6,586 nucleotides of DNA. Source: Gammaproteobacteria bacterium (GTDB lineage: Bacteria; Pseudomonadota; Gammaproteobacteria; GRL18). Each line of letters starts with the position of its first letter. The stretch's first letter is position 1. The DNA lies in assembly GCA_030632625.1 (NCBI GenBank), contig DAOVUK010000190.1, positions 1-6,586 on the forward strand, in the 5' to 3' direction. Of the stretch, positions 1-6,586 are shown in pieces. Under the pieces are notes generated by a model, which saw only the letters and a program-made list of their open reading frames with translations, was not told the origin of the DNA and ran no database searches. Both the position numbers and the translations under genes were made by a program.

Positions 1-3000
1 GTATCCATCACTTGCGAGGATTGCTCTAATAGTGCATTTAAATCGACCTGACGTGTTTTTACATCAGATAATTTTTCAGCCAGATGAGTCAGATTGTCGG
101 TAGGCAGAGCTTCAGACAAAGAGGCATTGATTGCCTGTTTTAAGTCATTTCGTAAACTGTCAAGCTCAGCAATAAATTGATGCAGCAGCGGTTGTTGATG
201 GTATTCGGTGGCACTTAATAATTGGCGCATGGCAATTTTTTCGCCGGAAGCCAATTCGCCATGATCACCGCCAGACAATGAGAAAGCATTATGACGTGAC
301 AACATCAGTGCAGCACCGGCATTGATTGTGTGTTCCTGCAAAAGGCGTTCAATGGTGGCTGATGACGTATCAGGCGTTTGCTGCCATATTTTCCATTGCT
401 GCTTTAATTGACAGTTTGAACTAAATTGATAGTTTGAACTAAATTGATAGTTTGAGCTAAACGAGTCTTCAGCAGCATGAGTTAAGGCACTGCTTTGATT
501 TTGCTCAGCGTCACTATTCTGCTGCCCGGCTTGAGTGATCGAATCACACAGTTCTACACAAAGACCACAGCCTTTGCAGCTGTCAGGATTAATAATCAGA
601 CTAAATAATTCACCACTATCATTTTGTCTCTTTTCTTGCGAATAAAACAATAGTTCTGTGGTCACAACAGGTAGATCGGCTATGGCCAGGTGGACCTTTT
701 CAAAATCAGTTTCGATATTCAGCATGCGTTCTTCAGGCAGGCCTGATTTTTCTTTGAACCAGTCAAAAGCATCACTGATTAATTCACCGGCATTATTCGC
801 TTCGATTTCATTATTTCGACAGCGTTTTGCCATTCGCGAAGCCAGTTTAGCAGTGACACTGCGCAGCGCATCTGCCCCGGTCATGTTAATACCTGTTTCA
901 ATTAATGCTTTGGGTGTGATTGCAACAACCGCAATGGCACTATCAGGACAGTTTGCCCAGCATGCACCACAGGCGGTACATTTTTGCGGATTAAACACCG
1001 GGACATCAAAATCAGCGCCATTAATGGTATGACGATGGCGGCTCATATCATTAAATGTAGCGCTTAAAGAAGGTATTGTACCCGTAGCAAGATAAGGGTC
1101 TGCCGTTAGCTGATCGGACTCATCCGCTTGCAATAAAACACCGACCTGATCCCAAAAACGGGGTAAACTATCATATGATTCACTTGCCTGACCTAATTTT
1201 TTGACCATCTCTGGTACTGCAGATATTGTTAACTGTGTATTGGCAGTTTTAACCGAGTCTGATAACACCATTTGGTAATTGTCAAATTCGACTGAATTTT
1301 CAATAATGGCATCAAGCGTCTCTTTAAATATCTCCGTTAAGGAAGTTTTCTTTTCTTCAGAAGCAGCATTGATTAAGGATTCACGAATAGAAACGACTTT
1401 GCGCTGCTTGATATTTAACTGGTTATTATTAAGTAAGCTTGCAATCAGTGTTGCCAGAATTTTTTCCCATTGAACGTCAATCTGGATGATATCATTATCT
1501 GCCGGTGTATCAACTTTATGCAGAGTAATATTATTATCCTGAATCAGCATAATACACTCTTCCAGTATACTCTCAGATGAAAAGGAATCCGGTAAATTGT
1601 CAGTATAGATCAGCACACCATTGTCAGCTAATTGCTGACAGGCACTGAGTAAAGATTTTTCATCAGCTGATATGACCATAAAGAAATCAACCAGACTCGA
1701 ACTACCCGCATTATAGGGCTGATCTGCCTGTGTGATATAATCTGTTTGTCGCGTTGCCCATTGTTCCCATGAAGATGAAATTGAACTGCGCAGATATCCG
1801 CCTTTAAGTTTATGCAGGCTTGCTGACAGGTCCAGAGCATAAGCAATATTGTCACTGCCATCGCTCATATGGCTTATAGCAAAACTGATTGCGTTGCCGG
1901 CAGCAGAACACACAGACAATCCTTTTCCTTTTGCATTGATACCCAATTCACTAATTTGGGGGTAATAACGTACCAGAGTGTCTAACATCACCTGTCGTTT
2001 CGGGTAATCCTCTTTTGTCTTACTGCGGGCATTTCTTACATCATAGGAAACAAATGGCACACCCAGATACCTGCCCTTAGCAACGTTAGCTTTAGAAGCA
2101 ATAGATTTTGAGCCTGAATTTTTTATTTCCTGACACAATACCCATAAATCTTCCAGATTGAGAGAAACACCACCCAGACCATAAATGATTGAACGTAGTT
2201 GTGGAAAATCACTGATACCTGTGCCCTTTTCAGTGGATAATTTTTTATGTATGGCAGCACGAATTTCACGCATCAACGGCGCGTCATCGGCTAAAGGTAC
2301 AGTCATTCGTTCAAGAATAATAAGTTGCTGTGTGCTGCTTTTATTTTTTTGCAGTATGTCGATTAACTGACTGGCATTAAACGGACGTAGGCTGTGTAGA
2401 CCAATAACGCCTATATTTATTTCTTTAAGGCCCTTCAGATAAGTGCTTAAAGTTCTGACCGTTTCAATGGCACTACCCTGGGCAACAATAATTATATCGG
2501 CTTTTTTAAGACCAAATGAAGAGACGGAGGAATATTTTCGAGCAGTTAATTGAGCGTATTCAGCAAAGGCTTGTTCAAGTATATTTGCCACTAAATCTTC
2601 AAAATAAATTTCTCTTGCAGCATTACCCAGTGCATAAATTTCAGGTGTCTGCAGCGCCCCCTGTAACACAGGCTTATCCAGATCATGCCATCTGTGAACT
2701 CTATTTCTTTGTTCTGAAAATAACTGTTTTTGTGCAACCGAGGGAGAATTAATGGCTTCATCTGCAGCGCCGATAAACAACTTAACCAGTTCAGCTGAAG
2801 GCAGACGAACATCCTGTGCCGAAAGGGCTGTTTCTGTACCATCCACAACCACTATACCCGGAGTCAGTGTCAATTCTGCAACATGACGAGCGATCAAAGT
2901 AAAATCAACTGCTTGCTGAACATTTTCCGCAAATAAAACAAAACAACCGCTATCCATCAACTGATGCAGAGCATCATGACCACTGCCCGGACTATTGCTA

Positions 3001-3431
3001 TGCGTTGCAGATAAACGATTATCAAGATGAATAACTAATGGCAGACGCCGGCCAACTGCAGTTTGCAATAAGTCCTGACAGGCAGTGAGATCATGAGCAG
3101 CAAGAAAAACTGTGCTTCTATGGCCGGACAAGGTAACACCCATTGCTGAAGCCAGTGCCCCTCTGGGTGAATCAGCATATTGGATACTCAGTTTTTCATC
3201 AAACAGGTTATTCCTTACCCGTTGCTGTTCGGACAACCAGGCAAGTGCTGCACCCTGCTGCAGAAAACCGCCACCCAAAGCGGCCACTTCGGTGATACAG
3301 GCCTCAGTCACTGCAATCGCAGTATTGCCATCTAATACAGTTTCGATACCATCAGCTAATTGCCCTGCAAATTCAGGTGAACCAAAAATTTGACGGTACA
3401 GACGAATTGCAGCTTCAGTAAGGTTTAACAT
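1..3431 (-). CDS. Large PFOR/NifJ-like oxidoreductase fusion, divergent (3' partial)
   Basis: The frame is open from ATG at 3431 to the window edge, giving 1143 codons plus two bases; the C-terminus lies outside. An in-frame TAA upstream makes this ATG the natural start. Pyruvate:ferredoxin oxidoreductases cleave 2-oxoacids with TPP and CoA and pass electrons through 4Fe-4S clusters to ferredoxin. Domain order fits: POR_N about 30-235 (LDGNTAIA at 33-40, RLSATHSNSPGSGHD at 139-153, VQQAVDFTLIA at 171-181); domain II about 260-440 (ADIIIVAQGSAIETV, IGVIGLHSLRPF); a gamma-like domain about 450-690; an EKR-like linker about 740-812 (ATGTIPSLS); 4Fe-4S motifs C818, C821, C824, C828 (CTACGACWANCP) and C952, C955, C958, C962 (CKGCGLCVELC); a low-complexity linker 965-1010; and the start of a TPP-domain-like region from about 1040 (SGGDHGELASGEK). 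The catalytic signatures of domain I and the gamma domain are not recognisable (see findings), so activity is doubtful. It is the third gene of the apparent operon, 64 bases after the RnfB-like gene. PFOR-family membership is well supported; the substrate is unknown. Confidence 0.85.
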   Translation of the reverse strand, partial: MLNLTEAAIRLYRQIFGSPEFAGQLADGIETVLDGNTAIAVTEACITEVAALGGGFLQQGAALAWLSEQQRVRNNLFDEKLSIQYADSPRGALASAMGVTLSGHRSTVFLAAHDLTACQDLLQTAVGRRLPLVIHLDNRLSATHSNSPGSGHDALHQLMDSGCFVLFAENVQQAVDFTLIARHVAELTLTPGIVVVDGTETALSAQDVRLPSAELVKLFIGAADEAINSPSVAQKQLFSEQRNRVHRWHDLDKPVLQGALQTPEIYALGNAAREIYFEDLVANILEQAFAEYAQLTARKYSSVSSFGLKKADIIIVAQGSAIETVRTLSTYLKGLKEINIGVIGLHSLRPFNASQLIDILQKNKSSTQQLIILERMTVPLADDAPLMREIRAAIHKKLSTEKGTGISDFPQLRSIIYGLGGVSLNLEDLWVLCQEIKNSGSKSIASKANVAKGRYLGVPFVSYDVRNARSKTKEDYPKRQVMLDTLVRYYPQISELGINAKGKGLSVCSAAGNAISFAISHMSDGSDNIAYALDLSASLHKLKGGYLRSSISSSWEQWATRQTDYITQADQPYNAGSSSLVDFFMVISADEKSLLSACQQLADNGVLIYTDNLPDSFSSESILEECIMLIQDNNITLHKVDTPADNDIIQIDVQWEKILATLIASLLNNNQLNIKQRKVVSIRESLINAASEEKKTSLTEIFKETLDAIIENSVEFDNYQMVLSDSVKTANTQLTISAVPEMVKKLGQASESYDSLPRFWDQVGVLLQADESDQLTADPYLATGTIPSLSATFNDMSRHRHTINGADFDVPVFNPQKCTACGACWANCPDSAIAVVAITPKALIETGINMTGADALRSVTAKLASRMAKRCRNNEIEANNAGELISDAFDWFKEKSGLPEERMLNIETDFEKVHLAIADLPVVTTELLFYSQEKRQNDSGELFSLIINPDSCKGCGLCVELCDSITQAGQQNSDAEQNQSSALTHAAEDSFSSNYQFSSNYQFSSNCQLKQQWKIWQQTPDTSSATIERLLQEHTINAGAALMLSRHNAFSLSGGDHGELASGEKIAMRQLLSATEYHQQPLLHQFIAELDSLRNDLKQAINASLSEALPTDNLTHLAEKLSDVKTRQVDLNALLEQSSQVMD
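407..460 (-). repeat. Three tandem 18-bp units inside the PFOR-like gene
   Basis: Three copies lie end to end at 407-424, 425-442 and 443-460. The plus-strand unit reads attgatagtttgaactaa; the first copy has one change (c for t) and the third has one change (g for a). Because 18 is a multiple of three, the gene stays in frame and encodes FSSNYQ, FSSNYQ, FSSNCQ (residues 991-1008). It sits in the polar Ser/Gln/Asn-rich linker between the second 4Fe-4S motif and the TPP-like region, where length changes should be tolerated. The near identity of the copies suggests recent slippage expansion. Confidence 0.95.
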
Positions 3432-3450
3432 AAAATTTTTAGTTATCAGG

Positions 3451-3496
3451 TTTGTATGTTTATAAGTTTATATGTTTGTTTGTATGTTTATAAGTT
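3451..3496 (-). repeat. 18-bp direct repeat in the spacer between the RnfB-like and PFOR-like genes
   Basis: The 18-base plus-strand word tttgtatgtttataagtt occurs exactly twice, at 3451-3468 and 3479-3496, separated by ten bases that repeat part of it (tatatgtttg). The second copy touches the last base of the RnfB-like stop codon. It fills most of the 64-base spacer, which is strongly AT-rich. Read on the coding strand this gives an A-rich, G-poor leader just before the ATG at 3431, with no Shine-Dalgarno-like GGAG or GAGG. It could be a protein-binding site, an unstructured translation leader, or simply a slippage product; the sequence does not decide between these. Confidence 0.9.
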
Positions 3497-4365
3497 CAAC
3501 TGCGAGATGCAAAGCGTTTTTCTGCATTCGACTGTGCAGCAAACTGGTCTCCTTCCAGCCATTGAATCGAATTGGTAGGACAGCGATCAATTGCTTTGCG
3601 AGTAGCCTTATCTGTGCTAAAGAGACCTGATGCATAATTAACAACCGGCAGCTCATTAACCATTGTCATTAATCCAGGCGGAGCGTCTGCAACACATTTG
3701 CCACAGGCATCACAGCCCGCACTACACAAAGCTGTAACAGACTCCCCTTCTAATGGGATATTACACTGCACATAAAGCTTTTCAGCCAGTGGCCGCAACT
3801 CAAAAATATCTTTAGGACAGATATCAACACAGTCTGCACAAGCTGTGCAGTTAGCCGTATCCACCACAGGCAGACCATTGTCGTTCATATGGATCACATC
3901 AAAAGTACAGGCAACTTCACAATCACCCAAACCCAGGCATCCCCAGGAACAGCCTTTGCCGCCGCCGGAAATAACCGCAGCAGCCCGACAGCCTTCAAAG
4001 CCATGATACTCTGCAATTTGAAAAGCCTGTCCCTTACCACCGGCACATTTCAAACGTGCGACAATTTTTTCCTGCTCACCGGCATCAACACCAAGAAATT
4101 CTGAAAGGTTGTCAATATCATCTTCTGAAGCCACTGTGCAGCCGCTGGGAGTCACTTCACCAGCGACCAGTTTTATGGCAAAGGGTAAACATCCCGGTTC
4201 GCCGCAAGCACCGCAGTTTGTACCTGGCAGCAATTCCTCTGTTTCAGCAATTCTTGGATCTTCATCCACTTTAAGATAATGATAAGCAACAGCAAGAATG
4301 CCTCCGAAAAGTAATCCTAAACTGGTCATAATGACGGGTGCTGTAAGAAAATCAGTTAAGTTCAT
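3496..4365 (-). CDS. rnfB: RnfB-like membrane-anchored polyferredoxin, long type
   Basis: 289 aa, complete. ATG at 4365 is supported by an in-frame TAA 15 bases upstream and by the membrane helix that follows at once; no strong Shine-Dalgarno is visible. Residues 9-31 form one hydrophobic segment, a membrane anchor. Next comes the RnfB/PF04060-type Fe-S motif, C51, C54, C59 and C76 (CGACGEPGC then C). Further cysteines are C107, C126, C139, C143, C149 and C153, the last four within CSWGCLGLGDCEVAC. A ferredoxin motif follows, C173, C176, C179 and C183 (CTACADCVDICP), and a last group C214, C218, C221, C224 and C262. RnfB passes electrons between ferredoxin and the membrane Rnf complex. The length and cysteine layout match the long RnfB of anaerobes such as Clostridia and Thermotoga rather than the roughly 190-residue RnfB/RsxB of enteric bacteria. 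No other rnf gene is in view, so it may serve as electron partner of the flanking PFOR-like proteins rather than of a true Rnf complex. The family call is firm; the symbol is by family only. Confidence 0.87.
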   Translation of the reverse strand: MNLTDFLTAPVIMTSLGLLFGGILAVAYHYLKVDEDPRIAETEELLPGTNCGACGEPGCLPFAIKLVAGEVTPSGCTVASEDDIDNLSEFLGVDAGEQEKIVARLKCAGGKGQAFQIAEYHGFEGCRAAAVISGGGKGCSWGCLGLGDCEVACTFDVIHMNDNGLPVVDTANCTACADCVDICPKDIFELRPLAEKLYVQCNIPLEGESVTALCSAGCDACGKCVADAPPGLMTMVNELPVVNYASGLFSTDKATRKAIDRCPTNSIQWLEGDQFAAQSNAEKRFASRS

Positions 4366-4376
4366 AGCATTCGTTA

Positions 4377-4396
4377 CTTACATGATGCTTACATGA
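4377..4396 (-). repeat. Two 9-bp repeats creating start-stop ATGTAA words
   Basis: The 38-base spacer between the ferredoxin-tailed gene and the RnfB-like gene holds the plus-strand word cttacatga at 4377-4385 and again at 4388-4396. On the coding strand each copy contains ATGTAA, a start codon directly followed by a stop, and the two are in different frames. They lie just upstream of the RnfB-like ATG. The repeat is directly visible; any role in translation is speculative. Confidence 0.75.
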
Positions 4397-4403
4397 GTGA
4401 ACG

Positions 4404-6586
4404 TTAATTGTAAGTTTTCGCACGTTCGACAAGCTCATCAAGATCAGATTCATTTTTATCCCAGGGTTGTCCGGGATGTATGCAATTTGAAGGGCAGATT
4501 TCAGCCGCTTCAATCATTTGCAAATAAGTACCGGCACTCAGATCGGCAATAATGGCCTGATTGCTGTCATTGTAAACAAACATTAACGGGTTCATATCTG
4601 TACAGTCATTACAGGTTGTACACAGAGGTGAATCAATCCACGCATCTTCAAAGCTTTCCTGTTCCTCTTCAACAAGCACTTCGTCAGGCGTTTCTTCCAC
4701 CATCTCAGTCTCGTCAATAAATTCACTTTGTGCAGCGGCAGCAGATACGGGTCTGACTGCAGCACCTCCGGCAGACAAATCCATCCCCAGTAACATATCA
4801 GTTAATCGACTCATCACTTCTGCAGCAGTTTCAGTTCTAACACGTTCCAGTTCAGCATCAAATTCAGCTTTGGCCTGAGCAACCTGTTTTGCCACTTCCA
4901 TTTCAGCATCTGCCTGAAACCGAACTTCGGCATCATCAATATACTGGCTGCGAACACCTGCCATTTCCTGCAGCGTATGCCAGAAATTTAAGCGGTCCCG
5001 GCAAGCATGAATGAGAACTCTGGAAACAACCAGTTTGCGTAATACATTATCTTTATTAACACCCCAGACATAGGGTATAACAGTATCAATTTCATTCTCA
5101 GGTAAAGACAAATAGTCTGCAACAGGTAATAAATCATCGGCCTCACAGTCATCAGGCACAAGACCAAAATGGTGATTCAACCGGGGTATCAGTAACGCAT
5201 AATCAGCAAAAGTAAAATCCAGTTCAATTTCACTGAACTCACCTTTTTCGTTTTGATAGTTAAAGGTGTGCACAGGCCAGTCTTTGTCTGCTTGAGGGTT
5301 ACCACTGAAATCAACGCGTTCGGCAGCTGAATCACCAGCGCCCGGATCAACTGAGAAGGATGGATGGGCTCTTCCCTCTAATGCCGCACCAGCGACTAAC
5401 CAGGCATTTAAATCTAATTTGTCCTGATCATCCCGAATGCCCACATTAATCAGATGCAGACTGGTTCGAGTCGCATCTAATGCAGTATTCAGGTGAGATA
5501 ACAGATGTTCATGACGTGCAGCTGAAGATTGAGACACAACCGCTTGTCGATGGCTGATAGCAAAATAGCCCAGCTCGGTACGATAGCTTTGAAAAGGATC
5601 TTCATCTACCCCGATACCAGGGTTATTATGTGCCTGAACACGAGCAATAATATTAACAGGTCTGCCGGAATTGAGCAGGTGTGAAAAAGACACCATACTT
5701 TCATGGGCCAGACGATCAGATGATTCTAATATAATAACAGAGGGAACCAGGGTGAGTTCTTTCTTAGAAAAAGCTTCCCAGTTAAAGTTATTGAACCAGG
5801 GGTCATGAATATTTTCATCATATAGATGGTCAATTTCCAATTTAGCAATACGTGCCGCAGCAAATACTTTTGCCAGTTGCTGGGCTTCCTGATCAAAAAC
5901 TTCCGTTGCTCTTATGCAGGGCTCCTCATGATGTTCTGTGGCAAAACAGGCACTTTGATTTAAGACTTTATCCAGTGAATAATTTGCGTGAATAATATGA
6001 ACTAATACTTCTTTTTCTTTAAATTTCTGTAATACAGCCACTGCATCCTGAATTCTTTCACGACGAGATGCTGACATGGAGAGAGAACCAGAAGAGTGCT
6101 TTACCACTTTAGACAAAGATTCTGTATTAAAGAATTGATTAGAAGATATATTTGATTTTAAAGAATTTGAAGATTTTGCTGCATCTTGTTTAGTATCATC
6201 AACATCCAGTAAAGTCTGCAATTTCTGGATGTATTGTACGCTCTCTTTTTTAAATAAGGTTAATTGTGGTATCACTTTAGAACGTATTAAATGCATGAGT
6301 AAATGTAATGCAGGAAAACGCCCATACGCTAACAACAAACCGTCTTCAGGCGTTGCTGCAAGCAGTTTATCCATATCAGCCTGCAGACGTTCCCGATAAT
6401 TTTCATCCAGATGCAGATGCTCGGTTAAAGCCTGACAGGCATCTGACATCAATGCTTTAATCGCTATCGGGCCTTCAACTTTATTGGCCTTTTCACCTAA
6501 GTAACGTTCAATCCAGGGTAAATTATCTTTTAACACAATCGCACTGGCCTGATCGGCTGCAAAAGCTTCTATGGTTTTATGCAAAA
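4404..6586 (-). CDS. PFOR-like pyrophosphate-domain protein with C-terminal ferredoxin (5' partial)
   Basis: The frame is open to the window edge. The first possible start is a TTG two bases from the edge, with no ribosome site visible, so the N-terminus is almost certainly outside; residues are numbered from that TTG (726 aa visible). Layout: helical region 1-130; Ser/Asn/Lys-rich linker 131-172; region 175-280 with DPWF (261-264); residues 281-385 resembling the PFOR C-terminal TPP-binding domain, with LNSGRPVNI (304-312) and LGYFAISH (338-345) where PFOR has LASGRNVNV and LGxMAMSY; a domain containing FSGNPQ, DWPVHTF and FTFADYA (about 400-545); a charged helix likely to form a coiled coil (550-595); an Ala-rich then very acidic linker (605-650); and a single-cluster ferredoxin with C655, C658, C661 and C697. 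The GDG motif for Mg-TPP is not present; ESSDR stands there. Presumably a cytoplasmic electron carrier or scaffold working with the two downstream genes. The family assignment of the middle part is by eye and uncertain; the ferredoxin is clear. Confidence 0.72.
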   Translation of the reverse strand, partial: LHKTIEAFAADQASAIVLKDNLPWIERYLGEKANKVEGPIAIKALMSDACQALTEHLHLDENYRERLQADMDKLLAATPEDGLLLAYGRFPALHLLMHLIRSKVIPQLTLFKKESVQYIQKLQTLLDVDDTKQDAAKSSNSLKSNISSNQFFNTESLSKVVKHSSGSLSMSASRRERIQDAVAVLQKFKEKEVLVHIIHANYSLDKVLNQSACFATEHHEEPCIRATEVFDQEAQQLAKVFAAARIAKLEIDHLYDENIHDPWFNNFNWEAFSKKELTLVPSVIILESSDRLAHESMVSFSHLLNSGRPVNIIARVQAHNNPGIGVDEDPFQSYRTELGYFAISHRQAVVSQSSAARHEHLLSHLNTALDATRTSLHLINVGIRDDQDKLDLNAWLVAGAALEGRAHPSFSVDPGAGDSAAERVDFSGNPQADKDWPVHTFNYQNEKGEFSEIELDFTFADYALLIPRLNHHFGLVPDDCEADDLLPVADYLSLPENEIDTVIPYVWGVNKDNVLRKLVVSRVLIHACRDRLNFWHTLQEMAGVRSQYIDDAEVRFQADAEMEVAKQVAQAKAEFDAELERVRTETAAEVMSRLTDMLLGMDLSAGGAAVRPVSAAAAQSEFIDETEMVEETPDEVLVEEEQESFEDAWIDSPLCTTCNDCTDMNPLMFVYNDSNQAIIADLSAGTYLQMIEAAEICPSNCIHPGQPWDKNESDLDELVERAKTYN

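Follow-up and report, generated by a model that had tools for sequence, protein, structure and literature searches.

What could two large proteins with the fold of pyruvate:ferredoxin oxidoreductase (PFOR), both without an intact active site, be doing on either side of an Rnf polyferredoxin? The question is raised by a stretch of 6,586 bases (the window, meaning the whole stretch of DNA analysed) that makes up the entire contig C155 of the gammaproteobacterial metagenome-assembled genome (MAG) G000 (3.36 Mb, 82% complete, 533 contigs), whose class is taken from its named relatives. It holds three minus-strand genes, P3, then RnfB, then P1, and both P3 and P1 overrun the window ends as truncated frames. 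An earlier note on this DNA had read the trio as an undescribed complex of its own, possibly an electron wire or a bifurcating system coupled to the membrane. We find instead that it forms the centre of an operon that brings in KorAB, a 2-oxoacid oxidoreductase whose motifs are intact. This conserved row of genes is predicted to encode an Rnf complex and KorAB, and P1 and P3 may well act as a fixed Fe–S wire between RnfB and KorAB, a reading that we hold with about even confidence. The window contains the following features, where TPP is thiamine pyrophosphate.

4404 to 6584, minus strand: P3, the C-terminal 726 residues of a protein of ~820–850 residues, with a degenerate PFOR domain VI fold and a C-terminal single [4Fe-4S] ferredoxin domain (CTTCNDC at residue 655).
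3496 to 4365, minus strand: RnfB, the Rnf polyferredoxin subunit, with 20 Cys and without the C-terminal CxxCxxCxxxC motif of ordinary RnfB; 167 bits to the RnfB of 7zc6.
3 to 3431, minus strand: P1, the first 1143 residues of a PFOR-like pseudo-enzyme of ~1,580 residues, with domains I–V complete, two [4Fe-4S] motif sets and domain VI begun; its relatives are without the catalytic Glu, TPP Asn and proximal cluster.
948 to 980, minus strand: first domain V cluster motif of P1, CTACGACWANC, residues 818–828 (position computed from residue number).
546 to 578, minus strand: second domain V cluster motif of P1, CKGCGLCVELC, residues 952–962 (position likewise computed).
1 to 110, no strand assigned: 110 bp shared without mismatch with the end of contig C531 (L022) of the same genome, which holds the rest of P1 followed by rnfC-D-G-E-A.

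An alignment of ten P1 proteins, used to scan contigs of named genomes, matched at 64 loci, of which four (L105–L108, Omnitrophota, ~25% identity, PFOR-like pieces only) were excluded before all counts, leaving 60 real relatives whose neighbours were annotated by tblastn. The hosts include symbionts of lucinid clams, tubeworms (Escarpia, Lamellibrachia) and a nematode (Thiosymbion), together with Thiodiazotropha, Sedimenticola, Achromatium, Thiomargarita, Woeseiaceae, Chromatiales and one Gemmatimonadetes. The recurrent order is korA-korB-P3-rnfB-P1-(sucCD)-rnfC-D-G-E-A. Counting same-strand genes, and only loci whose contig reaches far enough, P1 is linked to RnfB at 55 of 57 loci (54/57 by script; L082 has RnfB), to P3 at 47/50, to KorB at 43/46 and to KorA at 36/38; on the other side it is linked to RnfC at 38/45, RnfD at 37/44, RnfG at 34/41, RnfE at 33/40 and RnfA at 32/38. 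The conservation of P1 with RnfB, which the earlier note had set as a test of the trio, and the coupling to the membrane, which it had proposed, are therefore upheld, the latter by the rnfC-D-G-E-A genes that follow at most loci and on the window genome's own contig C531. A chance neighbourhood in one MAG is ruled out by the 60 loci.

In the window's own genome the row is spread over three contigs. Contig C531 carries the rest of P1, then rnfC, rnfD, rnfG, rnfE and rnfA (RnfC confirmed by an RnfC search, the other four named by likeness to the genes of relatives), and contig C203 (L029) carries malate dehydrogenase, a protein of 226 amino acids, a fumarate reductase-like flavoprotein, a NuoF-like protein, KorA and residues 1–252 of KorB, a part that includes the TPP motif GDGD..N. 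A genome of the same genus (G003, L033) holds everything from malate dehydrogenase through P1 on one continuous piece.

Lost catalytic residues and kept clusters

Domains I–V of P1 have the PFOR fold in a predicted structure model, and the catalytic positions are empty. Residue counts cover 58 of the 60 P1 loci, L079 and L100 being excluded at <800 amino acids. The catalytic Glu of domain I is found in 0/58 rows and the TPP-side Asn in 0/58 (two rows being cut by contig ends), against 4/4 for each in a sister type of PFOR with intact motifs, described below. The PFOR motif of domain VI, GDG...SNTGG, reads GGDDLLG in the P1 of the window's genome, with SNTGG absent, and the four columns of the proximal [4Fe-4S] cluster hold Cys in 0, 1, 0 and 0 of 58 rows. 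The two domain V clusters, in contrast, are kept in 58/58 and 57/58 rows, and a conserved domain I Arg is still present in most. All eight P1 pairs compared, only one of them saturated, gave ratios of nonsynonymous to synonymous substitution (dN/dS) of 0.10–0.24, indicating purifying selection.

P3 combines loss and retention in a similar manner. Its proximal-cluster columns hold Cys in 0, 1, 0 and 0 of 50 rows, against 13/13 in the sister type, and both the Asp of GGDG and SNTGG stand at 0/50, whereas the cysteines of its ferredoxin domain are kept in 47–49 of the 49 relatives of at least 700 amino acids (2 of 51 fell below that length and were excluded from the Cys counts). The view of P1 and P3 as eroded PFOR-like proteins under selection, which the earlier note had put forward, is thus confirmed by residue loss in both and by the dN/dS of P1. 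The same two results rule out an ordinary PFOR or a decaying pseudogene. At one locus, from a Thiodiazotropha MAG (ex Ustalcina; L079), korA, korB and P1 are each broken into two frames, through either assembly errors or decay.

Could P1 and P3 together still be a diverged but active TPP enzyme that acts on a different 2-oxoacid, perhaps as a hetero-complex with P3 lending its domain VI to P1? The domain VI fold of P3, the aligned Asn at the TPP place (kept in 44/50 P3 rows) and the Arg retained by most P1 rows would fit, as would some of the varying database names for P3, which among the part of the best 120 of 508 matches that is listed include 'ferredoxin', 'pyruvate decarboxylase' and, in the Riftia symbiont, putative pyruvate flavodoxin/ferredoxin oxidoreductase. 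We nonetheless consider this very improbable given the complete loss of Asn and catalytic Glu in P1 and of the GGDG Asp and SNTGG in P3. Nor is there evidence for the bifurcation suggested in the earlier note, as no flavin domain was matched in P1, P3 or RnfB of the window.

RnfB has changed as well. The window protein scores just above the cut-off of TIGR01944 (69.2 versus 68.7 bits), and the C-terminal CxxCxxCxxxC motif of clostridial or Bacteroides RnfB is found in 0/57 RnfB of this operon and 0/15 of the sister type (L102 being counted in both groups, and L150, 1 of 16, excluded from the latter), compared with 5/5 ordinary RnfB. In Acetobacterium woodii, ferredoxin is thought to dock near the B1–B2 clusters of RnfB, and the C-terminal region is described as a possible ferredoxin hook, according to the accessible text of PMC11889175. 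By analogy, the missing motif may correspond to this docking place.

The Rnf of this operon is an additional one, because 12 of 13 genomes searched for RnfC hold a second, more distant RnfC (37–42% identity) besides the operon's own type, which is present in 13/13. A further RnfC type (45–48%) occurs in 8/13 and is the RnfC of the sister operon in G005, G052, G059 and G073. Single in-frame TAG codons interrupt two RnfC frames from Thiotrichaceae/Thiomargarita genomes (G055:C441:2863-4203 and G057:C103:2531-3871).

A sister operon with an intact PFOR

The sister operon consists of rnfB, a PFOR of ~1,650 amino acids ending in a fused P3-like part that includes a ferredoxin domain, and then rnfC-D-G-E-A. 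The motifs of this PFOR are intact, both in the 4/4 rows mentioned above and in the 13/13 that keep CxxC and NATGC as well as the GGDG, Asn and last Cys columns. At one locus (L040), rnfB and PFOR are seen, and the 2.9 kb of sequence visible there contain no rnfC. A phosphoenolpyruvate (PEP) synthase gene follows the operon at 7 of the 10 loci that reach past rnfA (L023, L032, L042, L043, L139, L141 and L149) and is not beside it at the other three (L140, L142 and L147). Four loci with sister operon and PEP synthase (L023:8353-20000, L032, L141 and L149) are candidates for an Rnf-linked pyruvate synthase.

Among the genomes of 35 of the 60 P1 loci, 17 contain the sister PFOR at ≥60% identity (the query's own included; split over contigs in two), whereas searches of the window's own genome, which is incomplete, yielded none. 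Of 369 sampled Gammaproteobacteria, 31 had a match at 1e-70, and 20 of these are of the sister type by ≥52% identity; at most two candidates were scored per genome, such that a less similar operon may be under-counted. The sister type is also plasmid-borne, in Persicobacter psychrovividus (59% identity, rnfB after rnfA) and Gemmatirosa kalamazoonensis (49% identity, korAB in the same row). The latter row (L150:10138-25475, NZ_CP007129.1) reads korA-korB-rnfB-intact PFOR-rnfC-D-G-E-A, with the two oxoacid enzymes sharing a single Rnf, an arrangement that may be ancestral. No PFOR gene is annotated beside the ordinary Rnf operons of Bacteroides finegoldii, Vescimonas, Monoglobus and Parabacteroides.

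In a FastTree phylogeny of 73 rows, P1 forms one clade (support 99) whose sister group is the intact type (97); the earliest branch is the P1 of the Gemmatimonadetes (L102), in which the motif is half eroded. Six of the 60 loci were left out (L079, L089 and L100 as too short; also L052, L058 and L094), and long-branch and composition warnings make the placement of L102 and L091 unsure.

P1 and the intact PFORs also share inserts. The stretch of domain VI concerned measures 115–138 residues in P1, 104–123 in the intact sister type, 83–85 in a third PFOR type and 21 in three ordinary PFORs, while the spacing of the domain V motifs is 127–148 in P1, sister and third types versus 57 in ordinary PFORs. 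The third type (L143:2830-7413, L144 and L146) comprises proteins of 1,666–1,710 amino acids that keep GGDG and SNTGG and have an unusual C-terminus with CTNCKTCYQDL; at L143 it lies upstream of fumarate reductase-korAB genes.

Proposed electron path and direction

We infer that Rnf, P1, P3 and KorAB form one membrane-bound assembly. Electrons would pass from NADH through RnfC, the membrane subunits and RnfB to the clusters of P3 and P1 and on to KorAB, driven uphill by the transmembrane ion gradient, and KorAB would convert succinyl-CoA and CO2 to 2-oxoglutarate with no diffusing ferredoxin. P1 would have descended from a working PFOR of the sister type, the wire being retained once KorAB took over catalysis, and the sister operon with its intact PFOR would be the same machine for pyruvate. 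More tentatively, and with somewhat less confidence than in the wire itself, we propose that a dead PFOR became a permanent Fe–S wire in Rnf to give a ferredoxin-free, ion-gradient-driven 2-oxoglutarate synthase, that a second Rnf alongside it, whose PFOR is still alive, makes pyruvate, and that each hard carboxylation thus has a separate membrane engine.

The catalytic partner has the residues this would require. KorB keeps its TPP motif GDGD..N and cluster Cys in 44/44 rows of at least 300 amino acids (2 of 46 were shorter and excluded), and the KorA of one relative (L018) contains POR and POR_N domains, a gamma+alpha fusion, scoring 489.9 bits to OAFO_sf against a cut-off of 482.75. That the substrate is 2-oxoglutarate is suggested by neighbours that only some loci have, namely sucCD, the fumarate reductase-like protein and malate dehydrogenase. 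The reductive direction is suggested by these same genes, in some genomes, and by PEP synthase beside the sister operon. The genes sucC and sucD follow P1 at 8/60 loci in view, and a fumarate reductase-like gene is in view at 13/60 (an opposite-strand match at L090 being uncounted). In the window's genus the fumarate reductase-like flavoprotein and NuoF-like protein head the operon. The set found at the operon head in L026:1147-4879 and L029:2986-6608, which adds a protein of ~226–255 amino acids to these two, may be a soluble NADH:fumarate reductase.

Several observations weigh against this account. Five tubeworm-symbiont loci are without rnfC inside the 10 kb flank; in four of those genomes searched, rnfC was traced to the same strand ~11 kb downstream in three and to a distant place in the fourth. 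The row is broken in two Thiomargarita-type loci (L065 and L091) and in Thiosymbion (L069), and at L093 rnfB-P1-rnfCDGEA stands without adjoining korAB and P3, yet a P3-like protein is encoded elsewhere in all three genomes without neighbouring korAB or P3 (L069, L091 and L093). The operon is patchy even within the window's genus, occurring in 10 of 15 other genomes. The predicted structures are single chains (pLDDT, the model's confidence score, 79–80), and the 'wire coupled to the membrane' of the earlier note survives as the best inference, in which P1 and P3 would touch both Rnf and KorAB. The inserts alone do not show Rnf docking, because the third PFOR type, which is not seen between rnf genes, has them too (shorter in domain VI). 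To these points may be added the Asn kept in P3 and, for the reductive direction, the minority of loci on which it rests (sucCD and fumarate reductase-like gene), the 2-oxoglutarate dehydrogenase E1 present in the window's genome and the citrate lyase result given below. The genome also has a PFOR with intact motifs, and the PFOR of a same-genus relative scores 1371 bits to 6cin; the expectation in the earlier note that a conserved trio would stand without genes for a standard PFOR is therefore contradicted.

The isolated P1 loci (L069, L091 and L093) would also suit co-transcription without a shared complex, in which KorAB and Rnf are linked by soluble ferredoxin, and P1 and P3 are assembly factors, regulators or an unrelated electron store. 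A precedent is Azotobacter RNF1, a dedicated Rnf known to serve a ferredoxin-using enzyme through soluble ferredoxin (PMC12174285, in the text accessible). Such an arrangement would leave unexplained why the eight domain V cysteines of P1 and the ferredoxin cysteines of P3 are near-completely kept while the catalytic residues are lost, and why RnfB is without the C-terminal cluster motif of its ordinary counterparts; we regard it as rather unlikely.

The same assembly might alternatively run in reverse, with KorAB oxidizing 2-oxoglutarate in the tricarboxylic acid (TCA) cycle and Rnf making NADH and an ion gradient, saving the energy that 2-oxoglutarate dehydrogenase wastes. Gemmatirosa, an aerobic heterotroph, would fit this direction, as would the small number of loci with sucCD or a fumarate reductase-like gene. 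No citrate lyase domain was found in G000 (82% complete) or in five same-genus genomes (0/6); it was found in G052, G062 and G071, and 14 control genomes were silent. A full citrate-lyase reductive TCA (rTCA) cycle in the window's genome thus has no support. Furthermore, Rnf is reversible (PMC12174285, accessible text), and the available part of a 2014 paper treats its Rnf-linked PFOR as donor to Rnf (PMC4287430). However, RuBisCO is present in 14 of 24 genomes searched, the window's own included, the sister operon, given its neighbouring PEP synthase gene, seems to work in the anabolic direction, the fumarate reductase-like and NuoF-like proteins head the operon in the window's genus, and 2-oxoglutarate dehydrogenase is already there for oxidation. 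We therefore consider the oxidative direction unlikely, if the most serious competitor of the reductive assembly with its fixed wire.

Both PFOR and 2-oxoglutarate:ferredoxin oxidoreductase (OGOR) need electrons near −500 mV, and where aerobic or microaerobic sulfur oxidizers find electrons at such a potential is an unsettled question in studies of tubeworm and clam symbionts. If the reductive assembly is real, a dedicated Rnf wired to each carboxylase would answer how low-potential electrons are supplied, and P1 would show plainly how a large TPP enzyme can be put to new use as an electron conduit.

Comparison with known systems

In the open-access literature we found no description of the KorAB-P3-RnfB-P1 operon, of the loss of the active site, of a link to KorAB or of two such operons in parallel. 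The label 'undescribed' in the earlier note has to be qualified for the placement of PFOR genes within rnf: Dmytrenko et al. (2014) wrote one sentence on the Solemya velum symbiont that places PFOR genes between rnfB2 and rnfC2, with pyruvate as a possible donor (PMC4287430). That arrangement could be either operon type, with P1 or with intact PFOR, and the accessible part of the paper does not mention a lost active site, KorAB, P3, conservation or the RnfB change. For tubeworm symbionts, Rubin-Blum et al. (2019; PMC6315080) reported Rnf genes in rTCA clusters, proposed to help, with dimeric KorAB elsewhere in the genome; the complex proposed there joins four-subunit KorABCD and TfrAB with Hdr-Flx, and the available text does not describe a KorAB-Rnf operon. 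A 2024 study of the Riftia symbiont (PMC11636981, as far as accessible) counts RNF and the OGOR/PFOR isoforms among the complexes whose role or direction in the living cell is not known, and found that 'PFOR-like' and dimeric korAB transcripts of Endoriftia, which may or may not belong to this operon, fell together under sulfide limitation.

Compared with PFOR itself (1b0p, 6cin), P1 is without TPP motif, catalytic Glu and proximal cluster and has an insert of ~100 amino acids in domain VI, while a second domain VI copy and a ferredoxin domain form the separate protein P3. Compared with the Rnf complex (RnfABCDGE; 7zc6, 9eri), all six subunit genes are in the operon and RnfB is recognizably alike (167 bits to 7zc6), but a PFOR-like gene lies between rnfB and rnfC, korAB lies upstream and RnfB is without its C-terminal motif. 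Azotobacter RNF1, which feeds nitrogenase, offers a functional parallel as a dedicated Rnf run in reverse for one demanding reductase (PMC12174285, accessible part); there ferredoxin carries the electrons, whereas here we propose that a fixed protein does.

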